Assembly (NCBI GenBank): GCA_001899285.1
Contig: MKWA01000001.1
Span: forward strand, 119,915-171,795
DNA from: Rhizobiales bacterium 64-17
Lineage (GTDB): Bacteria; Pseudomonadota; Alphaproteobacteria; Rhizobiales; Xanthobacteraceae
DNA length: 51,881 bases
Direction of reading: 5' to 3'
Of this stretch, positions 6,424 through 15,954 are shown piece after piece (position 1 is the first letter of the stretch; each line of letters starts with the position of its first letter). A program made the position numbers and the translations under genes. The notes beneath the pieces are model-generated. The model was not told the origin of the DNA and did not search any database. It saw only the letters and a program-made list of their open reading frames with translations.

Positions 6424-7479
6424 CTACGCTGCCGTCAGCGGGAAAAGCCGATAGGATTGCGGCGCGAGACTGACAATCTGACCGACGCCTACGGGCAAGG
6501 CCCGCGGCGTGCTGATTTCGACCAGATGCTCGCCCGATGCGGTGCGCAATGCGACCTCGGCACGACGCAGCGCGCCAAGCCCATAGAGCCGCCGCACCTC
6601 GCCCGTGAGCCCACCGGCAATCGACCCGGCGTGAATCGCGATGTCGTAAGGGCGCGCGCACAGCGTCGCGCCGCCGTCCGGCACGCCTTGTGCATCGATG
6701 GCAATCGGCGAGCCGTCAAACCGGACCTCGCCGCCAGTGACGGTGACCGGCAAGGCCACTGAATCGCCGATGAACTCATGCACAAAGCTGCTGGTTGGCC
6801 GGTCATGGACCTGCTGTGGCGTCCCCGTCTGGATGATATGCCCCTTGTCGAGCACAACGACGCGGTCAGCGACCTCAAGCGCCTCTTCCTGATCGTGCGT
6901 CACGAACACCGACGTGATCTGAATGTCTTCGTGCAGGGTCCGCAGCCACCGTCGCAGCTCCTTGCGAACCTTCGCATCGAGCGCGCCGAAGGGTTCGTCG
7001 AGCAGCAGCACCCGCGGCTCGACCGCCAAGGCCCGCGCTAGCGCGATGCGCTGCCGCTGCCCGCCCGACAACTGATCGGGATAGCGTTGCGCCGTCCAGC
7101 TTAGCTGCACGAGATCGAGCAGATCGCCGACACGCTTGCGGATCGCAGGTTCGCTAGGGCGCTGGTGGCGCGGGCGCGCCCGCAAACCGAAGGCGACGTT
7201 CTCGAACACCGTCATATGCCGGAATAACGCATAGTGCTGGAATACGAAACCGACATGCCGCTCCGCGGCGCCGAGCGCCAAAGCATTCTCGCCGCCGAAC
7301 CAGACCGAGCCGCTATCCGGCCAGTCGAGTCCGGCCATGATCCGCAGCAGCGTCGTCTTCCCCGAACCCGAAGGGCCGAGCAGCGCGACCAGTTCGCCGG
7401 AGTGAATGTCGAGGTTAACCCGGTCGAGCGCGACAAATGCGTCAAAGCGTTTGGTGACGTTCTGAATACCGATCTTCAT
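6424..7479 (-). CDS. cysA: Sulfate/thiosulfate ABC transporter ATP-binding protein CysA
   Basis: A 351-residue ATPase that energises sulfate or thiosulfate import. Walker A is GPSGSGKTT (residues 35-43), the signature is [15 protein letters not shown], and Walker B is [11 protein letters not shown]. The C-terminal third is a TOBE-like regulatory domain. The [13 protein letters not shown] run is characteristic of CysA. The ATG at 7479 is chosen because the family begins just before the [12 protein letters not shown] strand; reading back to 7704 would enter cysW in another frame. It is the last gene of sbp-cysT-cysW-cysA and lies 10 bp after cysW. Confidence 0.95.
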
Positions 7480-7489
7480 CGTCTTGTCC

Positions 7490-8401
7490 CTACCGTGTTG
7501 TCCTCGCGATCCGCTTTTCCAGCACAACCTTGGCGACCAGTGTGACCAGCGCCAGAAAAGCCAGCAGCGACGCGACCGCGAACGCCGCCATGAATTGATA
7601 CTCGTTGTAGAGAATCTCGATATGCAGCGGCATCGTATTGGTCTCGCCACGGATATGGCCGGACACCACCGAGACCGCGCCGAATTCACCCATTGCGCGC
7701 GCATTGGTCAGAAGGACGCCGTACAGCAGCGCCCATTTGACGTTCGGCAGTGTCACGCGGAAGAAGGTCCGCAACCCGGAGGCACCGAGCGAGAGTGCCG
7801 CTTCTTCGTCCTGGATACCCTGCTCCCGCATCAGCGGAATGAGTTCGCGGGCAACGAACGGGAACGTAACGAACACCGTCGCCAGAATGATGCCGGGCAC
7901 GGCAAAGACGATCTTGATATCGTTGTCCTGCAGCCAAGGCCCGAAATAGCCCTGCGCGCCGAACAACAGGATAAAGACAAGACCGGAGATCACCGGCGAC
8001 ACCGAGAACGGCAGATCGACCAGGCTGATCAGGAGGCTTTTGCCGCGAAACTCGTATTTAGTGATCGCCCAGGCCGTGATCGTTCCAAAGACCACGTTCA
8101 GAACCACGGCCACCACGGCGGCCACGACCGTCAACCAGATCGCCGCCAGCGCGTCCGGATGGCTGATGGCTGCAACATAGGCCGCAACGCCTTTGGCCAG
8201 CGCCTGCGCAAACACATTCACGAGGGGAATGACAATGAAGATCGTCAGGAAGAAGAGCGCAACACCTGTTAGCGTCCATTGCAGCCAAAGCGGGTCGGCC
8301 CGTCCGTCGCGGCGGGAGCGATGCATGACGAGCGCGGGCGCGAAACTGGTCGCGAGCAAGTCCACGGTTTCCTGCGATTGAATCACGGGATTGAACGACA
8401 T
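7490..8401 (-). CDS. cysW: Sulfate/thiosulfate ABC transporter permease CysW
   Basis: A 303-residue inner-membrane permease, one half of the sulfate channel. About six membrane spans are visible. The cytoplasmic coupling loop with '[21 protein letters not shown]' is the EAA motif that contacts CysA. The segment '[18 protein letters not shown]' is a CysW/CysT hallmark. The longer N-terminal extension (about 40 residues before the first span) and its place between cysT and cysA fit CysW rather than CysT. The start ATG at 8401 shares one base with the cysT stop (TAATG arrangement), so the two subunits are translationally coupled. Confidence 0.94.
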
Positions 8402-9249
8402 TATCGTTTTCCAGCGCGCCGCTCGGACCAGCGCTGCAACAGATTGATGATCAGCAACAGGATGAACGACGCAACCAGCATCACCGCCGCGATCGCTGTC
8501 GCATCCGCATAACGGAACTCCTCCAGGCGAATGATGATCAGCAGCGGCGCGATTTCCGACACATTCGGAAGATTGCCGGCAATGAAGATGACAGAGCCGT
8601 ATTCCCCCACCGCGCGGGCGAAGGCGAGCGCGAAACCCGTGAGCAGCGCCGGCACCAGAGTCGGGAAAATAACCCGGCGGATTGTGGTCCAGCGGCTGGC
8701 GCCAAGGGTCGCCGCCACCTCTTCAAGCTCGGCCTCGAGATCCTGCAGTACCGGCTGAACCGTCCGGACCACGAACGGCAAACCGATGAACACCAACGCG
8801 ACGAAGATACCGAGCTGGGTGAAGGCGACCTTGATCCCCAGCGGCGCCAGCAGGCTGCCGATCCAGCCGTTCTCCGCATAGAGATTGGTCAGCGCGATGC
8901 CCGCGACTGCCGTCGGCAACGCGAATGGAATATCGATCACCGCGTCGAACATCCGCCGGGCGGGAAATTCGTAGCGAACCAGAACCCAGACCGCGATCAG
9001 GCCAAACACTAAATTCGTCGCTGCCGCGGCCAGCGCCAGGCCGAAGGACAACTCCAGCGCGTGCAGCGTGCGCGGGCTGGTGACGATCGCCACGAACCGC
9101 TCGAACGACAGCTCCGTTGTCTTCAGGAACAGCGCGGCGAGCGGAATGAGAATAATCAGCGACAGCCATGTCAGGGATACGCCCAGCGTGATCCCAAATC
9201 CCGGAACGACGCTCGGCTGCCGCCGCAGCAACAGAATTCCGCTCACCAC
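8401..9249 (-). CDS. cysT: Sulfate/thiosulfate ABC transporter permease CysT (CysU)
   Basis: A 282-residue inner-membrane permease, partner of CysW. It has about six hydrophobic spans, an EAA-type loop with '[17 protein letters not shown]', and the conserved '[16 protein letters not shown]'. The start is a GTG at 9249; the GAGG that overlaps the sbp stop codon lies 7 bp upstream, supporting it, and a second GTG follows at 9246. No ATG is available near the expected N-terminus. The gene lies 9 bp after sbp and overlaps cysW by one base. Confidence 0.94.
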
Positions 9250-9258
9250 GACTGTACC

Positions 9259-10251
9259 TCAGTTCTGGTAAATGGTGTCGAACACACCGCCATCGGCGAA
9301 GTGCGTCTTCTGGGCATTGCGCCAGCCGCCGAATACCTCGTCGATGGTGAACAGGTTCACCTTGGGAAATTGCGTCTCGTATTTCTTGACGATCTCCGGG
9401 TCACGCGGCCGGTAGAAATTCTCGGCCGAAATCTCCTGCCCCTGCTTGCTGTAGATGAAGTTCAGATAGGCCGTCGCCACCGCACGCGTGCCTTTCCGGT
9501 CGACAACCTTGTCGACGACGGCGACTGGCGGCTCCGCGAGGATCGAGACCGAAGGAACGACGATGTCGAACTTGTCCTGCCCGAACTCCTTGATGGACAG
9601 GAATGCCTCGTTTTCCCAGGTGACCAGCACGTCGCCCACATTGCGCTCGACGAATGTCACTGTCGAACCTCGGGCGCCGGTGTCCAGCACCGGCACATTG
9701 GCATAGATCGCTTTGACAAACGCCTTGGCCTTATCCGGCGTTCCACCGGGCTGCTTGAGGGCATAACCCCACGCCGCCAGATAGTTCCAGCGCGCGCCGC
9801 CGGACGTCTTCGGATTTGGCGTAATGATCTTCACACCGGACCTGGCCAGATCGCCCCAGTCCTTGATGCCTTTCGGATTTCCCTTGCGCACCAGGAAAAC
9901 GATCGTCGAGGTGTATGGCGCCGAATTTTCCGGAAGCCTCTTCTGCCAGTCGCTCGCCAGCAGCCCGCGATCGGCGATGGCGTCGATGTCGTAAGCCAGC
10001 GCCAGCGTGACGACGTCGGCAGCGAGCCCGTCGATCACGGATCGAGCCTGCTTGCCGGAGCCGCCATGCGACGACTTGATCTCGACTGTTTTCCCTTCAG
10101 GCGACTTGTATTGGCTGGAAAACGCCTTGCTCAACGCCGCATGCAGCTCGCGGGTCGGATCGTAAGATACATTGAGCAACGTGATATCCGCAGCATGCGC
10201 ATTTACGCCCAGAGCGGCAGCTAAAACCAGACCGTAAAGAGTACGTTTCAT
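9259..10251 (-). CDS. sbp: Periplasmic sulfate/thiosulfate-binding protein
   Basis: A 330-residue secreted receptor that delivers sulfate (or thiosulfate) to CysTWA. An N-terminal signal peptide ([15 protein letters not shown]...AHA) is followed by the mature domain, which has the conserved runs '[15 protein letters not shown]' and '[19 protein letters not shown]'. These identify the Sbp/CysP family, but I cannot separate Sbp from CysP with confidence. Two ATGs are close together; the one at 10251 has GGAG 6 bp upstream and gives a clean signal peptide, while the one at 10257 abuts the GGAG. It is the first gene of the sulfate-import operon, with a 13-codon leader ORF 45 bp upstream. Confidence 0.93.
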
Positions 10252-10296
10252 CCTCATCTCCACTTCCACCGGAAGATCGGTCACCATTGATGATCG

Positions 10297-10622: not shown

Positions 10623-11417
10623 ATGGATCGGCTCGATGAGCTCGAAGCGCAAAGCATCTTCATCTTCCGCGAGGCATTCGCCCGGATGAAGAACATCGCC
10701 CTGCTGTGGTCGCTGGGCAAGGATTCGAACGTGATGATCTGGCTGGCACGAAAGGCGTTCTTTGGCCGCGTGCCCTTTCCGGTCATGCACGTCGATACAG
10801 GCAAGAAATTCGCGGAGATGTACGAATTTCGCATCCGATACGCGAAGGAATGGGCGCTCGATCTCATCGTCGAGAATTGCCCACCGATCGATTCCGTCGA
10901 TCCAACGCTGCCGCCCGCGGCCCGCTCTGCCGCGCGCAAAACGGAAGGATTGAAGAGCGCACTCGTCAAGCACGGCTTCGATGGCCTGATTACCGGCATC
11001 CGCCGCGACGAGGAACCGACCCGCGCCAAGGAGCGCGTATTTTCACCGCGCGGCGCGGAAGGTCTGTGGGATGTCCGCGACCAGCCACCCGAATTCTGGA
11101 ATCACTTCAACGCGTCGCCACCGCCCGGCGCACATTTGCGCATTCATCCGATCCTGCATTGGACCGAAATCGACATCTGGGCGTATACGCGACGCGAGAA
11201 CATTCCGATCATCCCGCTCTATCTGAGCCGTAACGGAAAACGCTATCGCTCCCTCGGTGATGCGGACATCACCTTCCCTGTCGCGTCCAACGCGCGCTCC
11301 ATCGACGAAATCATCGACGAACTGCACGACACGAAAGTGCCGGAACGATCCGGGCGCGCCATGGATCACGAATCCGAAGATGCGTTCGAGCGTTTGCGCA
11401 CCGCCGGCTACCTGTAA
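10623..11417 (+). CDS. cysD: Sulfate adenylyltransferase subunit 2, CysD
   Basis: A 264-residue cytoplasmic enzyme that forms adenosine-5'-phosphosulfate (APS) from ATP and sulfate together with CysN. The ATP-binding PP-loop reads SLGKDSNVM (near residue 30), followed by 'PVMHVDTGKKFAEMYEFR' and 'DGLITGIRRDEEPTRAKER', all diagnostic of CysD. It is somewhat shorter than the roughly 300-residue enterobacterial form. The ATG at 10623 has GGAG about 9 bp upstream. The fused cysN-cysH gene starts 14 bp downstream, so the complete path from sulfate to sulfite is encoded by two adjacent genes. Confidence 0.95.
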   Translation: MDRLDELEAQSIFIFREAFARMKNIALLWSLGKDSNVMIWLARKAFFGRVPFPVMHVDTGKKFAEMYEFRIRYAKEWALDLIVENCPPIDSVDPTLPPAARSAARKTEGLKSALVKHGFDGLITGIRRDEEPTRAKERVFSPRGAEGLWDVRDQPPEFWNHFNASPPPGAHLRIHPILHWTEIDIWAYTRRENIPIIPLYLSRNGKRYRSLGDADITFPVASNARSIDEIIDELHDTKVPERSGRAMDHESEDAFERLRTAGYL

Positions 11418-11431
11418 CTCCTGGAACTACC

Positions 11432-13471
11432 ATGAACGTCCTGGTAAATCCCGAACTGCTTCCCGTCGCGGACCAGCGTCCGCTCGTCCGCATCGTCATT
11501 GTCGGGCATGTCGATCACGGCAAATCGACCCTGATCGGCCGGCTTCTTTACGAGACCGGCAGCCTTCCCGACGGCAAGCTCGAGCATCTCAAGGCCGTCA
11601 GCGCACGGCGCGGCATGCCGTTCGAATGGTCATTCCTGCTCGATGCGCTGCAGACAGAGCGCGACCAGGGCATCACCATCGACACCAGCCAGATCCGGTT
11701 TCGCACGGCGTCACGCGACTTCGTTCTGATCGACGCGCCGGGTCACGTCGAATTCCTGCGCAACATGATCACCGGCGCAGCGCAGGCCGATGCGGCGGTC
11801 CTGATGATCGACGCGACGGAGGGCGTGCGCGAGCAGACCCGCCGCCACGGCTACCTGCTGCATCTTCTCGGGGTCCGTCAGGTTGCCGTGGTGGTCAACA
11901 AGATGGATCGCACCGGCTACAGCGCCGCGCGCTTCAACGAGATCGCGGAAGAAATCGACGCCTATTTAACCGGTCTCGGTCTCAAACCGGCGGCCATCAT
12001 TCCGGTCTCCGCTCGTGAAGGCGACGGCGTGGCCCTCAAGAGCGCGTCGCTGGCATGGTACGACGGCCCGCCGGTGGTGCAGGCGCTCGATCAGTTCTCG
12101 CCGGCGGCGCCGCTGCAGAACCTGCCGCTCCGGCTGCCGGTGCAGGCGGTTTACAAATTCGACGATCGGCGGATCATCGCCGGGCGAATCGAAAGCGGCG
12201 AGATCGGCGTGGGTGACGAGATCACCGTCATGCCCGGCAACAAGATCGCCCGCATCCGCTCCATCGAGAATTGGCCGGTCCCTCACGAAGGCAAGACAGT
12301 CACCGTAGCAAACGCCGGGCGCTCCGTGGGGATCACGCTCGATCGCGAATTGTTCGTGCAGCGGGGCGAGATCATCGCCCGCGCCTTGGCTCCCGTCCCC
12401 GCCACCCGCCGCCTCCGCGCTCGCGTCTTCTGGTTGCACCCCACGCCCCTCGTGCCGAATACGACAATCACGCTGCGTCTGGGAACCAGCGAAGCCCGTG
12501 GGCAGGTATCCGCGATCGTCAATACCCTCGATCCGGGCGCCCTGCAGTCCGGCATCAGCCACGCCATTCCGCAGAACCACATCGGCGAAATCGACATCGA
12601 GCTGGCGAAGCCGCTTGCCGCGGACCGCTCCACCGAGAACCCGGCTACCGGGCGCTTCGCCTTGGAGATCGACGGACGTATCGGCGGCGGCGGGCTGATC
12701 CTCGATCTGCTGGACCAGCGCCGTGACCAGAATGAGATTCGCGGTTCGGATTCGACCGTTCCCCGCGCGTTGCAACAGCAAGCCGACGCGCTCGCCGCGC
12801 TTCTGGCGGATCTGCCGCCGGTCGATCGGCTCAAGCTGCTGCGCGATCAGATCGAGGGACGGATCGTCTTTACCACCAGTTTCGGCATCGAAGATCAGGC
12901 CATCCTCGAGATGATCGTCCGCAACGACATCGACATCGACGTGGTGACACTGGATACCGGCCGCCTGTTTCCGGAAACCTACAATCTGTGGGCACAAACG
13001 GAGAGCCATTTCGGCAAACGCATCCGCGCCCTCTATCCGCGCCACGACGCTCTTGAAGCTCTGGTCGAAAAGCAGGGAATCAACGGGTTCTATGCCAGCC
13101 GCGAGGCCAGGCTGGCCTGCTGCTTCGTGCGGAAAGTGGAGCCGCTGAACCGCGCGCTCGCCGGCGCAACGGGATGGATCACCGGGCTGCGGGCGGATCA
13201 ATCCGCCAATCGCGCCGATATGGCGTTGCTCACGGCGGATGCCTCGTATCGCCTGCTCAAACTCAATCCGATCTTTGATTGGTCACGCGAGCAGGTTGCT
13301 GCATTCACCGCATCGCAAGGCGTTCCGGTCAATCCGCTGCACGAGCGAAACTTCGCATCCATCGGCTGCGCACCGTGTACACGCGCGTTGCGGCCCGGAG
13401 AGCCGGAACGCGCCGGCCGCTGGTGGTGGGAAGAGGCCACCAAGAAGGAATGCGGATTGCACGGCCGATAG
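11432..13471 (+). CDS. CysN GTPase fused to CysH-type APS reductase
   Basis: One uninterrupted 679-codon frame joins two enzymes. Residues 1 to about 430 are CysN, the regulatory GTPase of ATP sulfurylase: GHVDHGKS (25-32), the GITID switch region (80-84), DAPGH (101-105) and NKMD (156-159), then beta-barrel domains. Residues from about 445 to 679 are CysH: TTSFGIEDQ (481-489), Cys-Cys (563-564), CAPC (646-649) and the catalytic C-terminal ECGLH (Cys674). The paired Cys motifs that bind a [4Fe-4S] cluster mark the APS-reducing type, so no APS kinase is needed, and none is present in the window. CysN is commonly fused to CysC; fusion to CysH is an arrangement I do not know as standard. The join around 425-455 shows no frameshift. 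Confidence 0.92.
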   Translation: MNVLVNPELLPVADQRPLVRIVIVGHVDHGKSTLIGRLLYETGSLPDGKLEHLKAVSARRGMPFEWSFLLDALQTERDQGITIDTSQIRFRTASRDFVLIDAPGHVEFLRNMITGAAQADAAVLMIDATEGVREQTRRHGYLLHLLGVRQVAVVVNKMDRTGYSAARFNEIAEEIDAYLTGLGLKPAAIIPVSAREGDGVALKSASLAWYDGPPVVQALDQFSPAAPLQNLPLRLPVQAVYKFDDRRIIAGRIESGEIGVGDEITVMPGNKIARIRSIENWPVPHEGKTVTVANAGRSVGITLDRELFVQRGEIIARALAPVPATRRLRARVFWLHPTPLVPNTTITLRLGTSEARGQVSAIVNTLDPGALQSGISHAIPQNHIGEIDIELAKPLAADRSTENPATGRFALEIDGRIGGGGLILDLLDQRRDQNEIRGSDSTVPRALQQQADALAALLADLPPVDRLKLLRDQIEGRIVFTTSFGIEDQAILEMIVRNDIDIDVVTLDTGRLFPETYNLWAQTESHFGKRIRALYPRHDALEALVEKQGINGFYASREARLACCFVRKVEPLNRALAGATGWITGLRADQSANRADMALLTADASYRLLKLNPIFDWSREQVAAFTASQGVPVNPLHERNFASIGCAPCTRALRPGEPERAGRWWWEEATKKECGLHGR

Positions 13472-13525: not shown

Positions 13526-14515
13526 CTACTGTTTCACAAATCCGATCTCGTCGATGACCCGGCGATACTTCGTGTCCGCGGCTTTCAGCAATTTGGCATA
13601 ATGGTCCGGCGAATAGTCGGGGATCGTATCGTTGCCCCGATCGGTGATGAATTTACGTCCCTCCGGAGACGAGACGATCGCTGCGATCTCGCGATTGAGC
13701 CGCTGCACGATCGGCTGCGGCGTTCCGGCCGGAGCCAGGATGCCGACGACATTGATGATCTCGAAATCCTTGAGACCGCTTTCCGCAAGCGTCGGCACAT
13801 CCGGAACCGTCGGGCTGCGCTGCAATGAGGTCACCGCCATCATCCGCAGTTGCCCGCTCTGGATCTGCGGCTGCATGGCGGAATAGGGATTGAAGACGAT
13901 ATGCGCGTCGCCGCGCACCACACCGATCATCGCCTCGGCGCCGCCGCGATACGGCACGATCTGCAACTGAAGGCCGGCGGCATGACGGAACATCATGCTG
14001 ATGACATCGCTGAAGCCACCGAGCGACGCGGCGTTCAGCTTGCCGGGATTGGCCTTTGCATACTGGATCAACTCGGCGATGTTGTGCACCGGGATGGTCG
14101 CCGATGACACCATCAGGAACGGATGCTGGAAGGCCGCAATAACCGGCGCGAAGTCCTTCACCGTATCGAAAGCGGGATTCTTCTGCAGCAACGGGCTCTG
14201 CATTGTCGTGCTGCTGGCGACAAGAAGAGTGTGCCCGTCAGGCGCCGCCTTTGCGACAACGCCGGCGCCGATCAACCCGCCGGCCCCGCCGCGATTTTCC
14301 ACCACCACCGGCTGTCCGAGCGCGGCACTAAGCTTGGGCGCGAGAAAGCGCGCAAGGAGATCGGTGGATGCGCCGGGCGGGAATGGCACCAACAACTGCA
14401 CCGGCCGCGCTGGAAATGTCTCCTGCGCCGGTGCCGCGGAGAAAGTACCCGTCATCAAAGCCGAGAGACATGCCAGCATGCCCGCGGCGCGCTTCCAAGA
14501 ACGCGACAATGTCAT
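13526..14515 (-). CDS. Bug-family (tripartite tricarboxylate type) periplasmic binding protein
   Basis: A 329-residue secreted receptor of the Bug/TctC family, which binds carboxylates. It has a signal peptide (MTLSRSWKRAAGMLAC...APAQ), the mature start 'FPARPVQLLVPFPPGASTD', then the family runs 'GQPVVVENRGGAGG' and 'VPDVPTLAESGLKDFE'. The ATG at 14515 has GGGAGG 8 bp upstream; an ATG at 14551 would precede the signal peptide. It is the last gene of a five-gene operon starting at 19129. The TctA/TctB membrane partners of this transporter class are not in the window, as is usual for the many orphan Bug proteins. Ligand unknown. Confidence 0.9.
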   Translation of the reverse strand: MTLSRSWKRAAGMLACLSALMTGTFSAAPAQETFPARPVQLLVPFPPGASTDLLARFLAPKLSAALGQPVVVENRGGAGGLIGAGVVAKAAPDGHTLLVASSTTMQSPLLQKNPAFDTVKDFAPVIAAFQHPFLMVSSATIPVHNIAELIQYAKANPGKLNAASLGGFSDVISMMFRHAAGLQLQIVPYRGGAEAMIGVVRGDAHIVFNPYSAMQPQIQSGQLRMMAVTSLQRSPTVPDVPTLAESGLKDFEIINVVGILAPAGTPQPIVQRLNREIAAIVSSPEGRKFITDRGNDTIPDYSPDHYAKLLKAADTKYRRVIDEIGFVKQ

Positions 14516-14554
14516 AGTCTGATCCTCCCGCTGTGCGGAGATGAAGGGCATGGG

Positions 14555-15586
14555 TTAGTTCGCACCCACCAGATTGGCTTTCTTGACCACGTCGCTCCAG
14601 ATCGCGAGCTCTGCCGCGAGTTCTCGGCTGAACTGGCCGGCATCGCTCGCCTTGTCCTCAAAGCCCATTTCACCGAACTTCTTGCGGACATCTGGCAGGC
14701 GGGCGACCTCGACAATCGCCTTCGACAGCCGGTCAACAATCGGCTTCGGTGTCTTTGCGGAGACGAAGAACCCGACCCAGGCGAGCACGGGCAGCGACGG
14801 CACGCCGGCCTCGCCGAAGGTCGGCACATCCGGCAATTGCGCCGAGCGCTGCTCGCTCGCCACTGCAACAGCCTGGATCTTGCCGGATTTGACCAGCGGC
14901 ACCGCGGGCGGAATGGTCGCAGACCCGACCTCGACCTGATTGGCGACCACCGCCGTCAAGGCCGGTGCCGCGCCGGGGAACGGCACATGCTGCATCCGCA
15001 AGCCGGGTTGTGACGTCAGCAGAAACTCCACCGTGAGATGCGACAGCGATCCGGCGCCGGTGGTGGCATAGTTGAGCGGCTTCTGGCGCGCGAGCGAGAG
15101 CAAATCCTTCAGCGAATGCGCCGGCACCTGCGGCGACGTGACGATGACGATCGCCTGCGGCGCGACGCTGGCCACCGGGGCCAGTTCATCGGCGATCTTG
15201 AAATTCGTCTCGGGTTTCAAAAGCTGGTTGATCAGCAGCGGGTTCGACGCGACCAGCACCGTCGTGCCGTTTGGCTCCGCGCTCGCCACCTGTCGCCCGG
15301 CGATGATGCCGGCGGCACCCGGACGGTTCTCCACGATCACCGTCTGGCCGAGCGACGTGGTGAGCCGGTCCGCGATCAGGCGCGCGACCACATCGACACC
15401 GCCACCCGGCGCGAACGTCACGATCAGCCGGATGGTCTGGTTTGACGGGATCGTCTCTTGCGCTGCGGTCCGCGACGGCATGCCAAGCACGGCGACCGCA
15501 AACAAGAGGCTGACAACAGCGAGACGGATGCGATCAAACAGGGGCGGCAACAAGGCTTGACGTCCAGGCGATGTCGAACGGCGCAT
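14555..15586 (-). CDS. Bug-family periplasmic binding protein
   Basis: A 343-residue Bug/TctC receptor with a long basic N-terminus and a signal peptide ending near 'GMPSRTAAQE'. Family runs include 'IRLIVTFAPGGGVDVVARL', 'GQTVIVENRPGAAG' and 'LPDVPTFGEAG'. The ATG at 15586 is chosen because it begins a plausible signal sequence; an in-frame ATG at 15673 lies inside the DUF35 gene and adds non-Bug residues. It sits 39 bp before a second Bug gene in the same operon. The two differ clearly, so they are not a recent duplication and may bind different acids. Confidence 0.88.
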   Translation of the reverse strand: MRRSTSPGRQALLPPLFDRIRLAVVSLLFAVAVLGMPSRTAAQETIPSNQTIRLIVTFAPGGGVDVVARLIADRLTTSLGQTVIVENRPGAAGIIAGRQVASAEPNGTTVLVASNPLLINQLLKPETNFKIADELAPVASVAPQAIVIVTSPQVPAHSLKDLLSLARQKPLNYATTGAGSLSHLTVEFLLTSQPGLRMQHVPFPGAAPALTAVVANQVEVGSATIPPAVPLVKSGKIQAVAVASEQRSAQLPDVPTFGEAGVPSLPVLAWVGFFVSAKTPKPIVDRLSKAIVEVARLPDVRKKFGEMGFEDKASDAGQFSRELAAELAIWSDVVKKANLVGAN

Positions 15587-15642
15587 GATCGTAGTTCCCC
15601 TCTCTCTCGAAACTGAACTCCGGTTCGATTCCGGCAATCCCT

Positions 15643-15954
15643 TCAACCCAATGCGCGGCGCGCGATCGGACAACCGTCCCGGTCGAACAGCCTGACCGCT
15701 GTCTGCTCCGGCAACGGCTCTTCAAGCCCGGCATTGATGACCTGGCCTTCGCTGGTCCGCACGCAGGCGATGTAACGCGGCTCCCACCGATCGCGGCCGG
15801 CGGCGTAACGCACCGTGGTCATCTGCTCGACCACGCCGGCCTCAACCCGATCCGTCTGCCACGATGCCTCCCCGCAGCGCGGACAGATCAGCCGATGCGG
15901 AAAGAATCCCGTGCCGCAACCCGTGCAGCGCGAAAGTGGAATCCCCGGTGTCAT
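15643..15954 (-). CDS. DUF35 OB-fold / zinc-ribbon protein (thiolase partner)
   Basis: A 103-residue protein of the acyl-CoA-associated DUF35 family. A rubredoxin-like zinc ribbon (Cys10, Cys13, Cys24, Cys27) is followed by a small OB-fold. Proteins of this family bind next to thiolase-like proteins; in steroid side-chain degradation a DUF35 domain pairs with an Ltp2-type thiolase fold to form an aldolase. Here it overlaps the thiolase gene by 4 bp (ATGA), so the two are almost certainly made together. The start ATG at 15954 is set by that overlap and places the zinc ribbon at the N-terminus as usual. Confidence 0.85.
   Translation of the reverse strand: MTPGIPLSRCTGCGTGFFPHRLICPRCGEASWQTDRVEAGVVEQMTTVRYAAGRDRWEPRYIACVRTSEGQVINAGLEEPLPEQTAVRLFDRDGCPIARRALG

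Follow-up and report, generated by a model that had tools for sequence, protein, structure and literature searches.

A CysN GTPase fused to an iron–sulfur APS reductase: a candidate two-gene route from sulfate to sulfite in Xanthobacteraceae

What does a sulfate-activating enzyme gain if one of its subunits is fused to a reductase? This question is raised by cysNH, a gene encoding the GTPase CysN and the reductase CysH in one polypeptide, within a stretch of 51,881 nucleotides from Rhizobiales bacterium 64-17 (contig MKWA01000001.1, positions 119,915 to 171,795)—referred to as the window, position 1 being its first letter. Adenosine 5′-phosphosulfate (APS) is the branch point between reduction, leading to cysteine, and sulfation by 3′-phosphoadenosine 5′-phosphosulfate (PAPS). 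We propose, with a rough probability of 0.83, that cysD and cysNH would form a two-gene sulfate-to-sulfite route, committed to reduction, that arose by replacement of the APS kinase CysC. CysD and the CysN part would use ATP and sulfate to make APS, with GTP hydrolysis on CysN as the driving force, and the tethered iron–sulfur (Fe–S) CysH would reduce APS to sulfite with thioredoxin as electron donor. The sulfurylase would thereby be tied to the reductive branch and not to PAPS synthesis, and tethering might allow for a fixed stoichiometry and a higher local APS concentration at the reductase, possibly even for true channelling. Within this reading, the protein families are our basis for the activities and the trees our basis for the swap, and the advantage of tethering is likewise inferred.

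The 679 residues of the protein run uninterrupted in one frame from an ATG at 11432 to the stop at 13469–13471. Pfam places GTP_EFTU at residues 18–222 (3e-49), GTP-eEF1A_C at 328–423, and PAPS_reduct at 478–652 (4e-39). An APS kinase match (PF01583) was not found in the fusion protein by the Pfam scan, nor was a CysC match in any of 17 fusion loci. In the segment from residue 415 to 480, the sole alternative start codon in frame is TTG447, with neither ATG nor GTG present, which makes separate translation of CysH unlikely, and an internal start yielding a free CysH was rejected on these grounds. Ratios of nonsynonymous to synonymous substitution rates, calculated for six pairs from 8 of the 17 fusions, are 0.10–0.21 for CysN (residues 1–425), 0.08–0.28 for CysH (476–679), and 0.23–1.6 for residues 426–475, which stand for the linker here. 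In the pairs tried, both domains are under purifying selection, and the linker evolves faster.

An earlier note on this DNA had read the frame as CysN GTPase motifs followed by a C-terminal CysH of the APS-using type, with paired cysteines at 563–564, CAPC at 646–649, and a catalytic Cys674; architecture, residue numbers, and type all prove correct. Cys563–Cys564, C646–C649, and Cys674 align with the cysteines of the Pseudomonas aeruginosa APS reductase 2goy, and the CC and CxxC cluster ligands and the ECGLH tail are complete in 16 of the 17 fusions, the remaining one (genome G279) ending at a contig edge. From NCBIfam, the CysH equivalog NF002537 scores 247.2 bits (cut-off 154), and the APS reductase model TIGR02055 is passed by a narrow margin (237.5 against 235.3 bits). 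An APS-using (Fe–S) type of the CysH part is hence supported by sequence.

In the CysN part, the G1 motif is accompanied by DAPGH at 101–105 and NKMD at 156–159, so that G1, G3, and G4 are all found, together with the EF1A-like three-domain fold of a CysN. The structure comparison by Foldseek spans residues 13–429 only; the CysH part was therefore assessed by sequence. The best NCBIfam matches of the N-terminal part are the CysNC and CysN models, yet both stay under their cut-offs. The CysN cut-off, TIGR02034, is a score threshold and not a biochemical trait, and we call the CysN part a member of a divergent, CysN-like clade. As an observation in its own right, positions 10623–12712 of the window and their Bradyrhizobium-type relatives represent a divergent CysN clade with a short CysD (264 residues), in which the scores of CysN against EF-1alpha models come close to those against CysN models.

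The fusion is not confined to the window. Of 391 genomes in its own family, at least 16, belonging to 6 genera, carry a single frame that begins with CysN and continues into CysH (up to the contig edge in G279), and one of these genomes, G004, is a single contig. For its own genus, one search gives 5 of 36 genomes and the family-wide search at least 5 of 43. In wider samples, the window's own fusion is the sole one among the matches listed for the order (1 of 397 genomes) and the phylum (378 genomes), and for the class (385 genomes) the matches listed hold two, the window's own and that of G1147. Matches were listed down to about 610 bits for the family, 251 for the order, 257 for the class, and 242 for the phylum, so that more divergent or broken fusions may escape. 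G1147 belongs to another order and is the only one among the 5 genomes of its family with the fusion, which may have arrived by lateral transfer or reflect bin contamination. On plasmids, 12 of 1537 matching records reach 80% query coverage, as two or three pieces over 2.7–3.3 kb in a separate-gene pattern. Among 80 named loci, five are fusions—two from Pseudolabrys sp., a genus within Xanthobacteraceae, and one each from a Hyphomicrobiales, a Xanthobacteraceae, and a Hyphomicrobiaceae metagenome-assembled genome, one of the five ending at a contig edge—and the remaining 75 all encode CysN followed by CysC, in line with the statement that CysN–CysC is the common known fusion.

The evidence points to an origin by domain swap, in which the CysC of a CysNC would have been replaced by an APS reductase lineage already in the family. 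The CysN part is 66–70% identical to CysN of these 75 cysD–cysNC loci (Bradyrhizobium, Afipia, Nitrobacter, Rhodopseudomonas, and Tardiphaga), the window's CysD is 81–87% identical to CysD in 74 of them, and the similarity to CysNC proteins ends at residue 424–430, where CysC begins in the latter. In the first CysN tree, which used 21 of the 75 loci (the one with outgroups used 15), the fusions and Bradyrhizobium-type CysNC form one clade (support 100/97); CysN of the cysH–cysD–cysN operons of the genus stands apart, being 34–37% identical. All eight outgroup relatives from other families and orders are CysD plus CysNC. G678, then G638 are nearest to Bradyrhizobium-type CysC in the CysC tree, and the same two outgroup rows are nearest in the CysN tree; hence, the kinase and the GTPase seem to share a common history, with CysNH as the derived form. 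The CysH part, in turn, clusters with CysH proteins encoded on their own in the genus (57–65% identity, 19 loci) and the order. In the larger CysH tree, which left out G279, cut by the contig end, 16 fused CysH and 8 stand-alone ones from the genus form a clade with a support of 97/87.

Bradyrhizobium-type CysH was rejected as donor, as it is 33–39% identical (65 loci) and lies outside this clade. Also rejected was the idea that it is a PAPS reductase, which would explain the kept kinase, since CC, CxxC, and ECG(L/I)H are present in every one of the 65 copies that the 75 named loci yielded. A separate observation concerns a stand-alone cysH in G031 (L155:1818–2424), which is broken across two frames and represents a pseudogene or an assembly error.

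If the sulfurylase is committed to reduction, the remaining content of the 16 fusion genomes of the family is of interest. By PF01507 search, 15 hold fused CysH and CysD copies only—a second stand-alone CysH was not found elsewhere in the window's own genome, G000—and G279 has two further fragments; a second CysD in G000, G004, and G259 was assigned by its position beside CysNC. APS kinase matches (PF01583) are strong (>200 bits) in five genomes (G000, G001, G004, G252, and G259), weak (21–57 bits, over the Pfam cut-off of 21.1) in five (G073, G214, G110, G244, and G295), and not found in six (G032, G033, G080, G285, G189, and G279), of which the first three are 99–100% complete. Sulfotransferases (PF13469) were assessed in the 10 genomes with a completeness of 90% or more and a contamination of 5% or less, and in the six others. 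In the former, they are present with a strong kinase match (G000, G004, G252, and G259), not found in G032, G033, and G080 without kinase match and in G073 with a weak one, and present with only weak kinase matches in G110 and G244. In the latter, G001 has both, G189 neither, and G214 and G295 have sulfotransferases with a weak kinase match. G285 and G279 carry sulfotransferases although a kinase was not matched in them; they depart from the pattern, albeit at a completeness of 77 and 75%. Some members of the clade may hence activate sulfate for reduction only. The earlier note had the kinase absent, which holds for the cysNH locus but not for the window's own genome: contig C2 (L178:7735–18529) bears a second cysD and a canonical cysNC, then a type I polyketide synthase of 2446 residues. 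This second pair could supply PAPS, perhaps for a sulfated polyketide.

Several observations weigh against the proposed route and its origin. The CysN part misses TIGR02034 with 327.3 against 336.1 bits and scores 307.4 with the EF-1alpha model, close to its CysN score; even the CysNC sister (L049) barely clears TIGR02034 with 341.1 bits, and Foldseek E-values for CysN (1zun_B, 9.5e-41) and EF1A chains (1.3e-40) are near equal. As the CysN models are missed and the CysH cut-off is passed, automatic pipelines may name half of the protein only. On the side of origin, the fusions did not form one clade in the first free CysN tree but a grade around CysNC, with weak support. Constraining them together makes the CysN tree no worse (approximately unbiased test, p-AU 0.645; 0.499 with outgroups), and with outgroups they form one side in 46% of 200 bootstrap trees. 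For CysH, the same constraint is borderline (p-AU 0.048; 0.0855 with more rows) since the group of fused sequences also takes in 8 stand-alone CysH from the genus, by either a split from the fusion or a second capture. The CysN data thus agree with a single origin, for which the CysH data are a borderline case. Last, the linker varies in length and sequence among the fusions and is poorly ordered in the structure model; its predicted flexibility and its variability speak against a fixed channel.

What the tether contributes can be read in different ways. Quite possibly, although at somewhat less than even odds, it only sets the stoichiometry and co-production of two enzymes that happen to be tethered, with no catalytic gain. 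The faster evolution and varying length of the linker agree with this, as do the 8 nested stand-alone CysH, which suggest that splitting may be tolerated; it is opposed by the occurrence of the fusion in 6 genera, the constraint on both halves in the pairs tried, and the lack of another CysH in 15 of the 16 genomes. More doubtful is the far-reaching proposal that the kinase-for-reductase swap made a dedicated sulfate-to-sulfite enzyme handing APS to its tethered reductase—which, if true, would mean that some hosts could lose APS kinase and dispense with PAPS-dependent sulfation altogether.

True channelling, whereby APS formed at the CysD site would reach the CysH site without entering the bulk pool, appears unlikely, a shade more so than this proposal. 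The two steps are consecutive within one complex, several hosts lack an APS kinase match, and the available text of a study on a eukaryotic fusion puts forward the same idea (PMC2275785). However, the available text of another notes a lack of activity and kinetics data for the eukaryotic fusion (PMC4220642), the linker is flexible and variable and the domain placement uncertain, and APS is made by CysD, not CysN, so that tethering to CysN gives proximity only via the complex. The single-chain model, with two mostly confident domains, a low-confidence linker, and an overall predicted template modelling score of 0.56, leaves the domain placement uncertain and is compatible with facing or non-facing active sites. 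That the CysN part no longer serves an ATP sulfurylase and has an EF1A-like role of its own, with CysH merely attached, is very improbable, even if the near-equal model scores and E-values would allow for it. A spurious joining of two genes by an assembly or frameshift error—the earlier note had placed a possible error at about 12700–12760—is ruled out by the same single-frame fusion in at least 16 family genomes, including single-contig G004, and in G1147. Architecture, motifs, conservation, relatives, and gene context of the fusion are established.

The surroundings of cysNH (Table 1) favour a role in sulfate reduction, as sulfate transporter genes—cysA, cysW, cysT, and a binding-protein gene, divergent and upstream—adjoin cysD–cysNH. 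As the earlier note stated, cysD lies next door on the same strand; it adjoins the fusion in the window and in 16 other fusion loci, although in G295 the contig end cuts cysD. Genes of the nitrite/sulfite reductase family are located on contigs C14 and C24 of the window's genome. In G004 (L131:1958–5468), such a gene and a flavodoxin/FAD/NAD reductase gene are divergent from cysD–cysNH, perhaps encoding sulfate to sulfide in four adjacent genes, and in G1147 (L177) one lies near cysD and the fusion. Pfam confirms a reductase gene close to the fusion in these two loci only; for G032 and G033, the matches close to cysD depend on the query SIR_L125, the longest open reading frame of its locus and probably antisense to the reductase gene. 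Downstream of the fusion, positions 13526–15673 of the window hold two adjoining genes that are 32% alike, which we take to be of the tripartite tricarboxylate transporter receptor type.

Table 1. Features of the cysD–cysNH region, in window positions (pLDDT, predicted local distance difference test)
Feature	Position	Strand	Remark
cysNH: CysN GTPase + APS reductase fusion	11432..13471, stop included	+	679 residues
CysN part: G domain + two EF1A-like beta barrels	11432..12712	+	residues ~1–427
G1 motif GHVDHGKS	11504..11527	+	residues 25–32
Variable linker	12713..12754	+	residues ~428–441; pLDDT <50 at 430–440
CysH (APS reductase) part	12755..13468	+	residues ~442–679
Cys563–Cys564, first Fe–S ligand pair	13118..13123	+	by homology
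CAPC 646–649, second Fe–S ligand pair	13367..13378	+	by homology
Cys674 of ECGLH, catalytic cysteine	13451..13453	+	by homology
cysD: short-type ATP sulfurylase catalytic subunit, 264 residues	10623..11417	+	14 bases upstream of cysNH
Sulfate ATP-binding cassette transporter substrate-binding protein, divergent	9259..10287	−	
cysT sulfate permease	8401..9249	−	
cysW sulfate permease	7490..8401	−	
cysA sulfate transporter ATPase	6424..7479	−	start inferred; mechanical open reading frame extends to 7704

On closely related CysD–CysN, one C-terminal domain thus seems to set the branch that APS takes: a kinase in one group, a reductase in the other. The pair of CysNC and CysNH represents a natural experiment on the effect of fusion to the sulfurylase, and APS channelling is testable by comparing both enzymes.

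A description of a CysN–CysH fusion was not found in the open-access literature searched, a scope that leaves most subscription papers outside. The available text of PMC4921024 lists CysN with APS kinase and, in a figure legend, cites a CysH fusion as an example, the partner not being named there. The closest kinds are CysNC and the eukaryotic sulfurylase–reductase fusions. In Bradyrhizobium-type CysNC, the CysN is 66–70% and the short CysD 81–87% identical, and the C-terminal enzyme likewise uses CysD-made APS; this enzyme is a kinase, whereas cysNH bears an Fe–S APS reductase with sulfite as the expected product instead of PAPS. A comparison case of the CysNC type is CysDN of M. tuberculosis, as far as the available text describes it (PMC4373884). 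Pseudomonas syringae CysD–CysN (1zun) shares the CysN fold but has no reductase, and its molecule name includes adenylylsulfate kinase. P. aeruginosa APS reductase 2goy is homologous over nearly the whole CysH domain, with CC, CxxC, and ECGLH in common, and is stand-alone, unlike the fused CysH. According to the available text of two studies (PMC2275785, PMC4220642), APR–ATPS fusions of dinoflagellates, Chromera, and Capsaspora also join sulfurylase and APS reductase in one chain. These are, however, eukaryotic, with the reductase N-terminal and a sulfurylase that is not of the CysD/CysN GTPase type, and the reductase of the Heterocapsa fusion falls, in the text available, into a clade without cluster cysteines; in cysNH, the CysN GTPase is N-terminal and the Fe–S CysH C-terminal. 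The fusion is, hence, real and conserved, likely of domain-swap origin, and a moderate surprise; the joining of sulfurylase and reductase is already known in some eukaryotes, from other parts.
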